Origin: Sphingomonas sp.
GTDB taxonomy: Bacteria; Pseudomonadota; Alphaproteobacteria; Sphingomonadales; Sphingomonadaceae
Direction of reading: 5' to 3'
DNA: 42,865 bases
Assembly (NCBI GenBank): GCA_013817375.1
Contig: JACDCV010000004.1
Location: forward strand, 1-42,865
The translations under genes and the position numbers were made by a program. Shown here in pieces: positions 7,654 through 31,972 of this stretch. The notes below the pieces were generated by a model. That model did no database searches, was not told where the DNA came from, and saw nothing but the letters and a program-made list of their open reading frames with translations. The stretch's first letter is position 1; each line of letters begins with the position of its first letter.

Positions 7654-7790
7654 AGGAGGGCTCGCCTTTTCTTGCCGATTCGAAGCGCGCCTAACATACC
7701 CCCAGCGCGATGAGGAGCAGCTGAACATGGCCGTCAGACCTCGACAAGCGGGTAGCGAACGGGTTTTGCTTGAACGATGGTGACCAGCAG

Positions 7791-10175
7791 ATGAAAATCG
7801 CGTGCATCGGCGGCGGGCCGGCGGGGCTCTATTTCGCGATCTCGATGAAGCTTCGCGATCCGGACCACGAGATTCACCTGTTCGAGCGCAACGCCCGGGG
7901 CGTGACCTTTGGCTGGGGGGTCGTCTTTTCCGACCAGACGCTCGACAATTTGATGGCCAGCGACCGCAAGTCGGCCGAAATCATCGCCAGCGAGTTCGCT
8001 CACTGGGACGATATCGACGTCCATATCCACGGGCAGTGCATCACCTCGTCCGGACATGGCTTCATCGGCATCGGCCGCAAGCGGCTGCTCGAGATATTGC
8101 AGGAGCGGGCGATCGAGCTTGGAGTCGTTCTTGCCTTCGAATCCGAGTGCGATCCGGCCGACGCGAAGTGGCGAAGCTATGATCTGGTGATCGCGGCCGA
8201 CGGAGCCAATTCGCGCTTCCGCGACGCGCAGGTCGAAGCGTTCGAGATCGACGTCGACGAGCGCGCAAACAAGTTCGTCTGGCTCGGCACATCGAAAGTG
8301 TTCGACGCCTTCACCTTCGCGTTCGAGGAAACGGAGCACGGCTGGATTTGGGCTCATGCCTATCGCTTCGCGCCGGACTGCTCGACCTTCATCGTCGAAT
8401 GTTCGGAAAAGGTCTGGCGCGGCATCGGCTTCGATACGATGAGCCAGGACCTGAGCATCGCCACCTGCGAGGCGCTGTTTGCCAAATATCTCGACGGCCA
8501 TTCGCTTCAATCGAACGCCAGCCACCTGATCGGCTCGGCGGCCTGGCTGAACTTCCGCCGGATCAAGTGCGACACCTGGTCGCACGGCAACGTCATCCTG
8601 CTGGGCGACGCGGCGCACACCGCGCATTTTTCGATCGGGTCGGGGACGAAGCTTGCGCTCGAGGATGCGATCAAGCTTGCCGAGGTCCTGGATCGCGTTT
8701 CGTCATTGCGAGGAGCGCAAGCGACGAAGCAACCCAGCGGCACCGACTCTGGATTGCTTCGCTCCGCTCGCAATGACGGACCATTGTCATTGCAAGCGGC
8801 GCTCGAGGAATATCAAGCGGAGCGCAATCTCGAGGTTCTCAAGCTTCAGAACAGCGCCCGCAACTCAACCGAATGGTTCGAAACTCTCGACCGCTATTTG
8901 CACTTCGAGCCGCTTCAATTCACCTATTCGCTGCTGACCCGAAGCCAGCGCATCAGCCACGAGAATTTACGCCTTCGCGATCCGGAATGGCTGGAAGGCG
9001 TCGAGCGCTGGTTCTGGAGCAAGGCGACCGACGGCCGGTCCGAGAAAAGCGCCCCGCCGATGTTCGCGCCGTTCAAGCTTCGCGGAATGCAGGTCGAAAA
9101 CCGGGTCACCGTGTCGCCAATGGCGATGTATTCGGCCGTGGACGGGACGCCGAACGACTTCCACTTCGTCCACTATTGCGAGCGCGCGCTCGGCGGCGCG
9201 GGCCTGTTGTTCACCGAGATGACCTGCGTGTCGGCGGAAGGCCGGATCAGCCCGGGCTGCACCGGAATGTGGAACGAGAGCCATGTCGCCGAGTGGAAGC
9301 GGATCGTCGGCTTCGTCCATTCGAACAGCAAGGCGAAGATATGCCTCCAGCTCGGCCATTCGGGCGCCAAGGGCTCGACGAGGGTCGGCTGGGAAGAGGA
9401 CAATGCGCCGCTAGAGGATGGCAACTGGCCGTTGCTTGCGCCCAGCAACGTGCGCTGGTCGCCGGCCAACCAGATGCCGCGGCCCATCACCCGCGCCGAC
9501 ATGGACAGGGTTCGCGATCAGTTCGTCGCCGCAGTCCGGATGGGGATCGAATGCGGTTTCGACATGGTCGAGCTTCACGCCGCCCACGGCTATCTGTTGT
9601 CGGGGTTCCTGACCCCGCTTCAGAACAGGCGCACCGACGAATATGGCGGGAGCCTCGCCAACCGCCTCCGCTACCCGCTCGAGATATTCGGCGCGATGCG
9701 CGACTCCTGGCCGTCGGACAGGCCGATGTCGGTGCGGATCTCGGCGACCGACTGGGCCGGCGATGACGGGATCACGCCCGACGACGCCGTCGAGATCGGC
9801 GAGGCATTCGCGCGCGAAGGCGCCGATTTGATCGACGTGTCGGCGGGCCAGACCTGGACCGGTGGAAAGCCGGTTTATGGCCGGATGTTCCAGACGCCTT
9901 TCTCGGATCAAATCCGCAACGAGGCAAAGCTTGCGACCATGGCTGTCGGCAATATCTACGAGCCCGACCACGCCAATTCGATCCTTGCCGCGGGGCGCGC
10001 CGATCTGGTGGCGCTTGCACGGCCGCACCTGATCGACCCGTTCTGGACTCTGCGCGCGGCGGCAGCGCTCGACTATCGCGACGTGCACGTCCCGCCCCAA
10101 TATCTCAACGGCCAGGCCCAGCTCGCCCGCAACCTGAAGCGCGAAGCCGAAGCGGCGGCGGCCCTCAAGGTGTGA
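7791..10175 (+). CDS. Bifunctional salicylyl-CoA 5-hydroxylase / old yellow enzyme-type oxidoreductase, with in-frame repeat insertion
   Basis: 794 residues from ATG 7791 (the track starts at TTG 7770). Residues 1-390 are a class A flavoprotein monooxygenase: dinucleotide motif GGGPAG near residue 8, mid motif [10 protein letters not shown], and the FAD ribityl motif GDAAHTAHF near 272. Residues ~420-785 are an old yellow enzyme TIM barrel ([50 protein letters not shown]). This architecture is that of salicylyl-CoA 5-hydroxylase/oxidoreductase and of 2-aminobenzoyl-CoA monooxygenase/reductase; both hydroxylate an aromatic CoA thioester. Which substrate is used cannot be told. Residues ~304-330 ([11 protein letters not shown]...GLLRSARND) come from a palindromic repeat and are not expected in homologues. 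No CoA ligase is nearby. The stop overlaps the downstream kinase start. Confidence 0.9.
8701..8778. repeat. Palindromic repeat, copy 1, inserted in frame in the monooxygenase gene
   Basis: 78 bases with inverted ends. The left end CGTCATTGCGAG is exactly the reverse complement of the right end CTCGCAATGACG, and the inner halves CGAAGCAACCCAG and CTGGATTGCTTCG also pair. The same family occurs at 30982-31049. Length 78 = 26 codons and no stop in the host frame, so the reading frame is kept. It translates to [13 protein letters not shown]...GLLRSARND, a peptide type commonly seen in spurious ORFs derived from this widespread repeat class. Confidence 0.92.
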
Positions 10176-11757: not shown

Positions 11758-11849
11758 GGCGGAGACGGAGGGATTCGAACCCTCGGTACGGGAATACCCC
11801 GTACGGCGGTTTAGCAAACCGCTGGTTTCAGCCACTCACCCACGTCTCC
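11757..11849 (-). tRNA. tRNA-Ser(GCU)
   Basis: The minus strand folds as a class II tRNA. The acceptor arms are GGAGACG (5') and CGTCTCC (3') with discriminator G and an encoded CCA at 11759-11757. The anticodon stem GCGGT/ACCGC encloses loop TTGCTAA, giving anticodon GCT. The long variable arm CGTACGGGGTATTCCCGTACC is typical of serine tRNAs, and the T arm contains GGTTCGAATCC. It reads AGC/AGU codons. Its 5' 22 bases overlap the 3' end of the PAS-GGDEF-EAL ORF on the same strand. Confidence 0.95.
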
Positions 11850-14848
11850 CGTAAAGCGGCAAGGCCATGCCCTATATAGGGGGTCACCGGGGGCTTCAAC
11901 CTGAACGGAGCACTAGTTTTGGCTGGCAATGCGACAGGTGTGCCGGCCCTGGTCGCGGATGCCGACCGAGCTAGGCGGCTTGCAGAGCCGCGGGGCCCGC
12001 ACCTTTGCGCAAGTCGCTCCACCAGGGCCGCGAGCCGGCTTGCAGCAACTGCCTTGGAATATAAAAACCCCTGTCCCACGTCACAACCAAGCTGGCGCAG
12101 CCTGCCGTCCTGCAACTCCGTCTCGATCCCTTCGGCAACGACGCTAATGTCGAGGCTCTTGCCCAAATTGATCACCGCGCGGATGATTGCTTCATCATCC
12201 GCATTGGCTTCCATGCTCCGGACGAAGCTCTGGTCGATCTTGATGATGTCCACCGGAAATTGTTTGAGGTGCCTGAGAGAAGCATAGCCCGTTCCGAAGT
12301 CGTCGAGTGCGATCTTAACGCCTTGCGAGCTGAGCAGCTTCAGGGCCCTGTCCACATATTCCGAACCTCGTCCGAGAAAGACAGTCTCCGTCACTTCGAG
12401 TTGGAAGTGCCTGGTCGGAATTGAGCTTCGCGCCAGTCTCTCGAGTACGCGTTCGGCAAAGTTGTTGCGCCTGAACTCGGCAGCCGAAGCATTGACGGCA
12501 ACGTGGCCGAACTCGACGCCATCGTCGAGCCAGCGGCGCATGTCACTAATCACCATCTCGATCATCCGGTCGCTGACCGCAGCCGCCAGCTCCAGGTCTT
12601 CGAACGCCGCCTGGATCGACTGGGGAGGCTGGATACCTCGGGTTGGATGGCGCCAACGCAGCAGGGCCTCGAATCCCGACAGTCCATCCGTCCCATAGTC
12701 GATTTTTGGCTGGTAATATGGCCTGATGGTGTCGTCACGAAGCGCGTCCCGGGCCAGCGAGATCATTGAGCTTCGCTTCTGCATCTCCAGGCGCATTGCC
12801 GACTGGAACACCATCAGGCCCCCCCGGCCGGCCGCTTTCGCACTGTAAAGAGAGATGTCCGCGCTTTTGAGCAATTCCTCGGGCGTGTTGCCGTGCTGGG
12901 GATAGATGCTTGCTCCTATGCTCGCTCGGCAATCCAGAATATTTCCGGCATAGGTGAAAGGCTCTCGCATTCGATCGAGGATCGCGTTGGCACGCCGGTG
13001 AACGTCCTGTGCGTCGCTGACGCCCGGCAGAAGGACCGCAAACTCGTCGCCGCCGAGGCGAGCGACGACGTCCGAAGACCGGACGACGCTTCTGAGCCTC
13101 TCCGCAAACATTTGCAGAAGTGCATCGCCGGCGTCATGGCCCAATGAGTCGTTGATCTGCTTGAAATGATCGACGTCGAGGTGAAGAAGCCCGAACTTCC
13201 TTCCCGTCGAAGATGCTTCCGCCAGGCATTCCGCAAGCCCGTCGTTAAACATGCTTCTGTTCGGGAGCCGGGTCAAAGCGTCGTGAGTCGCCGTCCACAG
13301 CACCCGTTCTTCCGCGGCCTTGCGCTCCGACAAATCCTGCATCGCTCCAACAGCGCGAACGGGACCTTCCGCGGTTCGAACAATATATCCGCGATCGACA
13401 ACTGCAGCGTAGGTCCCGTCCTGTCGTGCAAAGCGGTACTCGGAAGCGAAATGCGTTCCCTCGCCGGCGATGGTCCGAGCGAGTTCGTCAAGAACCCTTC
13501 GGCGGTCGTCGGGGTGGATTCGATCTTCCCACCAGCTCGCTTCGCGCCCCAACTCAGCGAACGCATATCCAAAGAGCCTGTCGTGAGATTCATTCCATTC
13601 GATGGTCTGAGCGACCAGGTCATGATCCCAAATGAGATCGTTGGTTGCCTGTGTCGCGAGCCGGTAGCGCTCTTCGGCCTTGAGGAGCGCGCTCTGCGCT
13701 TCGACCCGCTCCTGGATGTCCTCTACCGCTCCATACCAGCGGATGATCCTGCCATCGGCAACTCGCCTCGGCCGGGCACGCACTCGTACCCAACTGTAAT
13801 CGCCGGTCTTGAGCTTGATTCGATACGTGCAATCCAGCGGTTCGCCCGATGAGAGCGATTCTGACCAATCGCGATCGGTTGCTCCGAGATCGTCAGGGTG
13901 GATGGATTTGAGCCATCCGCTTCCCAGCGCCTGGTCCGAGGTTGTTCCCGTAAGCGCGAGCCAATGGGGACCTACCTCCAGGAGAGCTCCGTCCGGACCT
14001 GCGGTCCACGGAATATTCGGGCTAAGCTCGACAGCATATCTGTGATGCTCTTCGCTTTCGGCGAGGCGGCACTCCGCTTCCACCTGGTCGTGAATGTCCT
14101 CCGACAATCCGTACCAGCGGACAATGTGCCCTGCCTCGTTGCGTTTCGGGTAAGCGCGCGTGCGCAGCCACCTGTAATCGCCCTCGGCGCATCGGACACG
14201 ATATCTGTGATCCAGCGGTTGCCCTGCGGAGATCGACTGCCCGATTAGCGCGATTGCGGAAGCGACATCTTTCGGGTGGATGACGTTGTACCAGCCGTGC
14301 GTTAGCGCTCGCTCGGCGGAGATCCCGGTCATGGCCGTGAACCGACTGCTAACGCTCAATAGACGGCCTCGAGCGTCAGCAGTCCAGGGCATCTGCGGGC
14401 TAAGTTCGATCATGTTGCGATAGTCGGCCTCACTGTCGCGCACCGCCGCCTCGGTCTGGCGCAAATAAGTGATGTCGAGGCAGACGCCCCTGACTTGCAC
14501 GACGACGTCGTTCTTTACGACGGGACGCACTTTGCTCCAGCAAATGCGCTCCGTTCCGTCACTTCGTATGACTCGGAATTCACGCTCGTACGATTGACGA
14601 TCACGAACAGCGTCCAGCAGCCGTGCCATGGTCGCATCGCGATCGTCGGGATGAATGTTCCTGAAGGTGCTTTCGAGCGTCGGCGTGTACGTCCCGGGGT
14701 CGAACCCCATGATCGCGAAAAGCTGCTTTGACCATGTGAAGGTCTCGGTTCCGACAACCCAGCACCACAGGCCGAGCTTCGCGATCTGATGGAGGCCGTC
14801 CAGATCTTCCAGGAAATCCGCGCCCACTTCATCTTCAAGATAGTTCAA
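11828..14848 (-). CDS. PAS-GGDEF-EAL cyclic-di-GMP signalling protein
   Basis: 1006 residues from a TTG at 14848 with AGAGGT at good spacing. Four PAS domains of the PAS_3 type fill residues ~20-515, each with the HPDD or HPKD signature. The GGDEF domain (~520-680) has an intact GGDEF (599-603) and, five residues before it, RSSD, which fits the inhibitory I-site RxxD. The EAL domain (~705-945) has FEALLRWRHP near 727 and DDFGTGYASL near 850, so both synthase and phosphodiesterase motifs look intact. No membrane segment or signal peptide: a cytoplasmic sensor. The last ~60 residues after the EAL domain are Arg/Ala/Ser/Pro-rich and run across the tRNA-Ser promoter into the tRNA, suggesting loss of an earlier stop codon. 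Confidence 0.92.
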   Translation of the reverse strand: MNYLEDEVGADFLEDLDGLHQIAKLGLWCWVVGTETFTWSKQLFAIMGFDPGTYTPTLESTFRNIHPDDRDATMARLLDAVRDRQSYEREFRVIRSDGTERICWSKVRPVVKNDVVVQVRGVCLDITYLRQTEAAVRDSEADYRNMIELSPQMPWTADARGRLLSVSSRFTAMTGISAERALTHGWYNVIHPKDVASAIALIGQSISAGQPLDHRYRVRCAEGDYRWLRTRAYPKRNEAGHIVRWYGLSEDIHDQVEAECRLAESEEHHRYAVELSPNIPWTAGPDGALLEVGPHWLALTGTTSDQALGSGWLKSIHPDDLGATDRDWSESLSSGEPLDCTYRIKLKTGDYSWVRVRARPRRVADGRIIRWYGAVEDIQERVEAQSALLKAEERYRLATQATNDLIWDHDLVAQTIEWNESHDRLFGYAFAELGREASWWEDRIHPDDRRRVLDELARTIAGEGTHFASEYRFARQDGTYAAVVDRGYIVRTAEGPVRAVGAMQDLSERKAAEERVLWTATHDALTRLPNRSMFNDGLAECLAEASSTGRKFGLLHLDVDHFKQINDSLGHDAGDALLQMFAERLRSVVRSSDVVARLGGDEFAVLLPGVSDAQDVHRRANAILDRMREPFTYAGNILDCRASIGASIYPQHGNTPEELLKSADISLYSAKAAGRGGLMVFQSAMRLEMQKRSSMISLARDALRDDTIRPYYQPKIDYGTDGLSGFEALLRWRHPTRGIQPPQSIQAAFEDLELAAAVSDRMIEMVISDMRRWLDDGVEFGHVAVNASAAEFRRNNFAERVLERLARSSIPTRHFQLEVTETVFLGRGSEYVDRALKLLSSQGVKIALDDFGTGYASLRHLKQFPVDIIKIDQSFVRSMEANADDEAIIRAVINLGKSLDISVVAEGIETELQDGRLRQLGCDVGQGFLYSKAVAASRLAALVERLAQRCGPRGSASRLARSASATRAGTPVALPAKTSAPFRLKPPVTPYIGHGLAALRETWVSG
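11871..11899 (-). promoter_or_regulatory. Probable sigma-70 promoter of tRNA-Ser
   Basis: On the minus strand TTGAAG (11899-11894) and TATAGG (11876-11871) are separated by 17 bases, a good housekeeping promoter layout placing the start about 15 bases before the tRNA. The -10 lies inside the perfect palindrome CCCTATATAGGG (11870-11881). The promoter is embedded in the 3' coding end of the GGDEF-EAL ORF. Confidence 0.5.
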
Positions 14849-29570: not shown

Positions 29571-30962
29571 CTAGCGGCCGACCATCGATCCTGGCTTCAC
29601 GACCCGCTCGAAAGTCTCCTCATCGACATGGCCGAGCTCGAGCCCGGCTTCTTTTAAAGTCTTGCCGGTCTTGTGCGCGTGCTTGGCGATCTCGGCCGCC
29701 TTGTCATAGCCGATCTCCGGAGCAAGCGCCGTCACCAGCATCAGCGAGCGCTCGAGAAGGTCGCTGATCCTCGCCTCGTCCGGCTCCAGACCTTCGAGGC
29801 AGCGCTCGCAAAAGCTCTCCATCCCGATCGCGAGCAGGGTGATCGATCGAATGATGTTCGCGCCAATGAGCGGCTTGAACACGTTGAGCTCGAGGTGGCC
29901 CTGGAGCCCGCCGATCGTAACCGCGACATGATTGCCCATCACCTGGGCGGCAACCATCGTCAGCATTTCCACCTGGGTCGGGTTGACCTTGCCCGGCATG
30001 ATCGAGCTTCCCGGCTCATTCTCGGGAAGTTTCAGCTCACCGAGACCGCAGCGCGGGCCGGAACCCATCAGCCGGATGTCGTTGGCGATCTTGGTCAGCG
30101 ACACGGCGAGCGTGTTCAGGGCGCCTGAAAGCTCCACCATCGTATCGTGAGCGGCCATTTCGGCGAACTTGTTGGGCGCCGAGGTGAACGGCAAACGCGT
30201 GAGATTGGCAACTTCCCTGGCGACCGCCTCGTCGAATCCCTTCGGGGTATTGAGCCCGGTGCCCACAGCGGTCCCGCCCTGCGCCAGCCGATAGATGCGC
30301 GGCATCAGCTCCTCGAGCCGGGCGATATTGGCTTCCATCTGCGCTGAATAGCCGGAGAATTCCTGGCCGAGCGTCAGCGGAGTCGCATCCTGCAAATGCG
30401 TGCGGCCGATCTTGACGATATCGTCCCACTTGCGCGCCAGCTCGGCGAGCAGCCGGTGCATCTCTTTGGCCGCGGGAAGGAGCCTGGAGGTGATCGCCCG
30501 GGCGGCGCTGATGTGCATCGCGGTCGGGAAGCTGTCGTTCGACGACTGGCTCTTGTTGACATGGTCGTTGGGGTGAACCGGCTCCTTGCCGCCTCGCTTT
30601 CCGGTCAGCTTCTCGTTGGCGCGGCCGGCGATCACCTCGTTGGCGTTCATGTTGGACTGGGTGCCGGAGCCGGTCTGCCAGATGACCAGCGGGAACTGGT
30701 TGTCGAGGTCGCCGCAAGCGACTTCGCCGGCGGCCTGCTGGATCGCTTCGGCAAGCTCGGCGTCGAGCAAACCTTCGCGCGCATTCACCCGTGCCGCCGC
30801 CTGCTTGACGAAGCCGAGCGCGTGGATGATCTCGACCGGCAGCGCCTCGCGCGGCCCGAACGGGAAGTTGCCGATCGACCGCTCGGTCTGCGCTCCCCAA
30901 TAAGCGTCGGCAGGAACGTCGATGGGTCCGAAGCTGTCGGTTTCGGTGCGATTGCTGCTCAT
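29571..30962 (-). CDS. fumC: Class II fumarate hydratase
   Basis: 463 residues. It catalyses fumarate to malate in the TCA cycle, with no Fe-S cluster. The fumarase/aspartase signature [13 protein letters not shown] lies at residues 318-330 with the catalytic Ser; other blocks are [13 protein letters not shown] near 98, [11 protein letters not shown] near 140 and [20 protein letters not shown] near 186. ATG 30962 fits the family start [26 protein letters not shown]. The upstream region holds the second palindromic repeat. Confidence 0.97.
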
Positions 30963-30981
30963 CAGATTCTCACTTGCATGG

Positions 30982-31049
30982 CGTCATCGCGAGGAGCGGT
31001 AGCGACGAAGCGATCCAGCGCGACTGCTTCGCTTGCGCTCGCAATGACG
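30982..31049. repeat. Palindromic repeat, copy 2, between sspB and fumC
   Basis: 68 bases: left half CGTCATCGCGAGGAGCGG... with inner CGACGAAGCGATCCAG; right half CTGCTTCGCTTGCG...CTCGCAATGACG. Its ends are the same as those of copy 1 at 8701-8778 (one base differs in the left end). It starts 20 bases upstream of the fumC ATG and ends 9 bases after the sspB stop, and could form a large hairpin in the sspB 3' end or fumC leader. Confidence 0.9.
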
Positions 31050-31058
31050 GCGCTCCTG

Positions 31059-31544
31059 TTATTTTTTGCGCGTGAAGTCCACGCTGACGACGTTCGATCC
31101 GTCGTCGGCGACGGCTCCCACCGAGGGCGAGTCATTTTGCGCCTGCTCATGCTCCTCGGGCGCCGGCTCGGCAGCATTTGCCTGAAACTTGAGGCTGAAA
31201 TCCACGGCCGGGTCGACGAACTCGGTCACTGCAGCGAAGGGCACGTGCAAGGTTGACGGCACCCCACCGAACGACAGGCCGACCGAAAAGGCATCCTGTT
31301 CGACCTTCAGGTCCCAGAAGCGGTGCTGGATGATGATGGTCATCTCTTCGGGGAACTGCTCGGTGAGATGTTTGGGGATCAACACGCCCGGCATCCGGGT
31401 CTGGAAGGTGATGTAGAAATGGTGAGGCCCGGCGAGCCCGCCGGACCGCTCGACCTCGCCGAGCACTCGCCCGACGACATCGCGAAGCGCCTCCTGCACG
31501 ATTTCGTCGTACGGAATCAGGCTTTCTGGAGTCTCGTCGCTCAT
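31059..31544 (-). CDS. sspB: SspB-family ClpXP adaptor protein
   Basis: 161 residues from ATG 31544; the track ORF carries 51 false N-terminal codons overlapping the HIT gene. The core (IPYDEIVQEALRDVVGRVLG, HHFYITFQTRMPGVLIPKHL, MTIIIQHRFWDLKV, FSVGLSFGGVPSTLHVPFAAVTEFVDP) is the alphaproteobacterial SspB fold, which in Caulobacter SspBalpha delivers ssrA-tagged proteins to ClpXP. A disordered acidic linker follows, and the C-terminal tail ends VVSVDFTRKK, in the place of the ClpX-binding tail. Divergent from the HIT gene with a 50-base gap. Confidence 0.87.
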   Translation of the reverse strand: MSDETPESLIPYDEIVQEALRDVVGRVLGEVERSGGLAGPHHFYITFQTRMPGVLIPKHLTEQFPEEMTIIIQHRFWDLKVEQDAFSVGLSFGGVPSTLHVPFAAVTEFVDPAVDFSLKFQANAAEPAPEEHEQAQNDSPSVGAVADDGSNVVSVDFTRKK

Positions 31545-31594
31545 CGATTCGGGTGGTAACGAGGCGACGTTCCCGGTCAAGCGGAGTTGAGTTG

Positions 31595-31972
31595 ATGCCG
31601 ATCGATCCGACGCAGCCTTACGACGACAGCAATGTCTTCGCGAAGATCCTTCGCGGCGAGCTTCCATGCAAGAAGGTCCATGAAGACGAATGGGCACTCG
31701 CCTTCCACGACATCAACCCCATCGCCCCCGTCCATATCCTGGTGATTCCCAAGGGCAATTACGTCTCCTGGGACGATTTCGCCGAACAGGCGTCGGATGC
31801 AGAGCTTGCCGGATTCGTCCGTGCAGTCGGCAAGGTCGCCCGCGACCAGCAGCTCGAGGTCCAGGGCTACCGGCTTCTCGCCAACACCGGAAAGCGCGCC
31901 GGTCAGGAGGTTCCGCACCTCCATGTTCACATCTTCGGCGGGCAGCCGCTGGGACCGATGCTAGCCCGCTGA
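31595..31972 (+). CDS. HIT (histidine triad) family protein
   Basis: 125 residues from ATG 31595, which has GGAG eight bases upstream; the track's 139-residue start lies in the divergent sspB region. The triad HLHVHIF (His108, 110, 112) is complete, with the HINT-branch features FAKILRGELPCKKV at the start and FHDINPIAPVHILVIPK in the middle. These proteins hydrolyse nucleoside phosphoramidates such as AMP-lysine. A general housekeeping enzyme; the natural substrate is unknown. Confidence 0.93.
   Translation: MPIDPTQPYDDSNVFAKILRGELPCKKVHEDEWALAFHDINPIAPVHILVIPKGNYVSWDDFAEQASDAELAGFVRAVGKVARDQQLEVQGYRLLANTGKRAGQEVPHLHVHIFGGQPLGPMLAR

Follow-up and report, generated by a model that had tools for sequence, protein, structure and literature searches.

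The palindrome that nearly fills the gap between sspB and fumC in this Sphingomonas genome raises the questions of what the element is, how it came to lie there, and whether it takes part in the expression of its neighbors. The window analyzed here is the whole stretch of 42,865 nucleotides. Both genes are on its minus strand. The sspB gene, encoding the ClpXP adaptor SspB (PF04386; Pfam, 5.8e-44), spans 31059 to 31697, with its stop codon at 31059 to 31061 and its conserved part at 31062 to 31544, and fumC, encoding a class II fumarase (Pfam FumC, 2e-110), spans 29571 to 30962, with its ATG at 30960 to 30962. The palindrome, referred to as copy 2 (30982 to 31049, minus strand), is located downstream of the sspB stop codon and upstream of the fumC ATG. 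It occupies 68 of the 96 nt between them (30963 to 31058), with 9 nt remaining toward sspB and 19 nt toward fumC, in agreement with the original prediction of an element that fills most of the gap. The best explanation, to which we assign a probability of about 0.75, is that copy 2 is a non-autonomous pair of CGTC-tagged REPs that would have arrived specifically in this lineage and would be transcribed within a read-through mRNA as a hairpin without a terminator tail.

Structure and copy number of the repeat

Copy 2 has the sequence CGTCATCGCGAGGAGCGGTAGCGACGAAGCGATCCAG / CGCG / ACTGCTTCGCTTGCGCTCGCAATGACG and consists of two inverted units separated by a spacer of just 4 nt. Sequence and alignment place the long unit, with a CGTC tag, an ATCGC...GCGAT stem, and a CCAG tail, at 30982 to 31018 (plus strand) and the short unit, with a CGTC tag and an ATTGC...GCAGT stem, at 31023 to 31049 (minus strand); the tail of the short unit is degraded and its CCAG has been lost. 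Read along the sense strand of sspB and fumC, the short unit precedes the long unit, an order also seen by inspection in five other gap occupants of the same core type (type A, GTCATTGCGAG). Copies of the family are built as CGTC-hairpin-CCA in each of two inverted units, CGTC-ATTGC-GAGGAGCGCAAGCGACGAA-GCAAT-CCAG for the long unit and CGTC-ATTGC-GAGCGTAGCGAA-GCAAT-CCAG for the short unit. The units are unequal in length (37 nt versus 27 to 30 nt), and their stems show 5 bp of uninterrupted pairing, with internal mismatches and bulges further in. The left end, CGTCAT, was invariant in 19 of 19 aligned copies.

The earlier proposal that this is a second copy of the repeat at 8701 to 8778 was confirmed, with 87% identity between the two over the left 39 nt of copy 2. 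Copy 1 (plus strand) lies in frame within an open reading frame at 7770 to 10175 (plus strand) that encodes a fusion resembling an FAD monooxygenase and OYE, in which the insert reads as a 26-residue peptide. The insert was absent from 14 of the 16 relatives aligned at that point. Two genomes (G031 and G005) have an insert in this very position; it contains a further, nested palindrome and keeps the frame open. Other repeats in the window include a 54-nt repeat (family D1) at 2411 to 2734, in six copies spaced mostly 51 to 54 nt apart inside overlapping open reading frames, and two direct-repeat families (D4 and D19) at 13776 to 14236. The latter two have an equal spacing of 378 nt, which suggests a duplicated domain in the open reading frame at 11828 to 14848. 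A tRNA gene was detected at 11760 to 11849 (minus strand; Rfam RF00005, 58 bits).

A covariance model built from 19 copies, copy 2 itself among them, detected 16 copies in the present assembly (E <= 1e-5; 2.23 Mb, 253 contigs, 89.9% complete), all of them paired, and scored copy 2 at E = 1.4e-10 within its own genome. The same model detected copies in 26 of 37 genus genomes. The family is thus genome-wide, as had been predicted from the two copies in the window, and most copies in the assembly lie within tens of bases of the 3' ends of open reading frames. Similar elements were found on plasmids of Methylosinus, Methylocystis, and Novosphingobium and in one cyanobacterium. Taken by itself, the outer palindrome is not unusual, since 28 position pairs in the window form such a stem (at least 11 of 12 positions, span of 45 to 110 nt, overlapping offsets counted). 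Outer stems of this length therefore arise by chance elsewhere in the window, which would allow copy 2 to be a palindrome formed by chance or else a conserved cis element found only in the sspB-fumC gap. Against this, 15 further copies of the same sequence lie at unrelated places, and the original pattern search returned 5 matches compared with 0 for the reversed pattern. Either reading has next to no probability and was ruled out by the copy count; the family membership of copy 2 is well beyond chance.

In the sense RNA, copy 2 was predicted to fold at -32.8 kcal/mol (z = -2.8), and copy 1 gave a more stable fold (-42.8) on its minus strand. No compensatory pair changes were found among the 19 copies, and thus there was no sign of selection on RNA structure. 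The palindrome appears to be maintained by copying, with no visible contribution from selection on the RNA.

Probable transcription across the sspB-fumC gap

The stable hairpin directly 3' of the sspB stop codon could be taken for an intrinsic (Rho-independent) terminator of sspB, with fumC transcribed separately, and a termination hairpin for the sspB mRNA had been suggested originally. However, an intrinsic terminator is a GC-rich hairpin followed immediately by a T-run, and the sense-strand sequence after the stem of copy 2 has no T-run; what is T-rich on the opposite strand is the sspB 3' end. In addition, a scan of 30700 to 31900 for terminators and sigma-70 consensus sites returned nothing. 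In some relatives, the two genes touch or overlap, which further argues against termination between them. We therefore regard a terminator as very unlikely and dropped that part of the earlier suggestion. Processing of the mRNA at the hairpin is possible.

In 55 distinct loci, sspB and fumC lay side by side in the same direction, sometimes touching or overlapping, an arrangement that fits co-transcription. Copy 2 would most likely be transcribed in a read-through sspB-fumC mRNA, where it would form a stable stem-loop without a terminator tail. In this genome, it could act only as an mRNA structure, if at all, either protecting the 3' end of sspB or providing a cleavage site.

Occupation of the gap in the genus and a candidate fumC promoter

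CGTC-REP-like palindromes of four core types were found in 34 of 56 genus gaps, with types assigned by hand-set sequence patterns and some occupants being single or degraded units. Type A was found in 6 gaps, type B (CCTGAACTTG) in 9, type C (CCCGGGCTTGA and similar cores) in 17, and type F (CTGAGCTTGTC) in 2; copy 2 belongs to type A. Under a strict count, 10 REP pairs occurred in 55 gaps (5.3 kb), whereas the flanks, about 273 kb in all, contained 5 (including one that overlaps a gap) and shuffles contained 0. On fumC trees, the types were scattered, and the well supported branches require a minimum of 4 label changes for type A, 5 for type B, and 6 for type C, where label changes may be gains or losses and transfer of the fumC gene would also scatter labels. 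The REP types at this site have turned over repeatedly. Among the nearest relatives of the present genome on the fumC tree, three (G015, G023, and G033) have no REP pair and one (G063) has another type. Because of this and the scatter of types, the preferred reading of copy 2 is a lineage-specific insertion, an arrival that would be independent of type A elsewhere. The gap, directly after a stop codon and upstream of the fumC ribosome-binding region, may for that reason tolerate or favor insertions. These data newly point to the sspB-fumC gap as a hot slot for CGTC-REP-like pairs.

Two motifs with specific spacing were detected in the gaps. CTCGAC-N17-NTA[GA], a frequent motif where the gap has no REP pair, was present in 12 of 53 genus gaps; at other spacings, it occurred once at 13 and not at 12, 14 to 16, or 18 to 23. 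CTTG[AT] and YTAG were separated by 18, 19, or 20 nt in 6, 5, and 1 gaps, respectively, which were gaps holding pairs of type B or C, and by no other spacing from 12 to 25. Here, CTTG falls within the first (left) REP unit and YTAG within the spacer. In one gap (G018, locus L293), an intact CTCGAC-N17-GTAGGC is preceded upstream by a REP-like pair with another core, and thus some insertions leave the -35 region in place.

Housekeeping promoters of Sinorhizobium have the form CTTGAC-N17-CTATAT, and the gap motifs resemble such alphaproteobacterial promoters in both spacing and sequence. We infer that in many species the gap contains a dedicated fumC promoter, which REP pairs straddle. A further step would be that the slot holds the fumC promoter, with the left REP unit supplying the -35 element (CTTGA), the -10 element staying in the spacer, and the second unit becoming the fumC mRNA leader; copy 2 would then be a variant with a diverged or displaced promoter. 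In line with this, the combined motif occurred in 15 of 53 gaps, compared with 0.15 expected from shuffles, none in reverse complements, and none of the 37 REP pairs located outside the gaps of these genomes. This motif was first defined by eye after the first gap set had been viewed, which weighs against it; in a fresh gap set, it was present in 5 of 23 gaps, compared with 0.13 expected from shuffles (maximum of 3 in 500). It was absent from copy 2 and from the other type A occupants examined (L007 and G017). We hold this account of copy 2 only tentatively, as we do the wider proposal of a swap-in site at which a REP unit would supply the fumC -35 element and unrelated CGTC-REP pairs would serve as exchangeable promoter or leader pieces.

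A search for CTTGAC/CTATAT upstream of fumC in the present genome gave a best match of 7 of 12 positions and no convincing site. Since the motif is missing here, transcription of fumC probably depends on read-through from sspB or else on a promoter that went unrecognized in this analysis. The original prediction that the fumC promoter overlaps the element or lies upstream is partly supported, by a putative overlap in relatives and not by the present genome, where the motif is absent. For copy 2, the reading as a lineage-specific pair carried in a read-through mRNA is preferred.

To our knowledge, CGTC REPs are widespread in Alphaproteobacteria and have neither a known mover nor a demonstrated function. 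A single gap that has been filled over and over with different REP types within one genus would provide natural replicates, with which one can ask which enzyme is responsible, why insertion occurs there, and whether fumC expression is altered. If the promoter proposal is true, small repeats without a known transposase would be exchangeable promoter or leader pieces of a central metabolic gene. Refilling of the slot and overlap with the promoter, both suggested by computation, are the parts worth following.

Proposed mobility and relation to known REPs

The two inverted tagged hairpins resemble a REPIN, and movement of the repeat by a Y1 (HUH) REP-associated tyrosine transposase (RAYT) encoded in the genome had been proposed. 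Both genus genomes with a Y1_Tnp gene (G005 and G034) do carry the repeat. However, no copy lies near either gene, no Y1_Tnp gene was found in the present assembly (89.9% complete), and none was found in a genome with 47 pattern matches (G039). The Y1_Tnp gene of another genome (G048) is also not flanked by the present repeat and has its own unrelated palindromes. Furthermore, the tag is CGTC, not GTAG, and Di Nocera 2013 (PMC3733652) reports no RAYT association for CGTC REPs. A RAYT-moved REPIN is thus very unlikely, and linkage to a RAYT was rejected. In G048, the Y1 transposase gene is located between two copies of a palindrome, CTATTT...GTGACAGTTACTTTTTT (locus L122, 3568 to 3658 and 4330 to 4420), which is the arrangement expected for a RAYT with its own repeat. 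A clean empty site with a target duplication was not found for copy 2. The family would be a non-autonomous dispersed repeat moved in trans by another enzyme.

No Rfam family matched copy 2, and a literature search by the element sequence gave nothing relevant among the matches listed. The anatomy of the repeat points to the CGTC REP superfamily, which is defined by its tag. Both units of copy 2 carry an unpaired CGTC tag, the stems begin with AT (ATTGC/GCAAT or ATCGC/GCGAT), the long unit ends in a CCA tail (ATCCAG), the 16 copies in the assembly are dispersed pairs of opposite orientation, and no dedicated transposase is flanked by the repeat. The four families named in Di Nocera 2013, CGTC-1 to CGTC-4, have stems of 8 to 9 bp and loops of 4 to 5 nt, which the present units do not have. 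The element was therefore not filed under any of them, a separation based on their described stem and loop lengths.

REPINs and BIMEs with a RAYT are similar to the present element as two inverted tagged hairpins that are intergenic and present in many copies, but their GTAG tag and RAYT linkage are both missing here. The CGTC REPs described in PMC3733652 are mostly inverted dimers, occur in Alphaproteobacteria, S. wittichii and S. chlorophenolicum among them, lie mostly just past the 3' ends of open reading frames and sometimes within genes, and have no associated transposase. The present family shares with them the tag on each unit, the AT-first stem, the CCA tail, the inverted pairs, the location just after open reading frames with occasional intragenic copies, and the absence of an associated transposase. 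It differs from the four published families in its 5-bp uninterrupted stem, its bulges, and its unequal units. Taken alone, the element is ordinary. CGTC REPs in sphingomonads are already reported in that paper. The same paper describes the Rickettsia palindromic elements RPE-4 and RPE-6 as CGTC repeats, some of which lie in frame inside genes; in another host, and as likened by description, they resemble copy 1.
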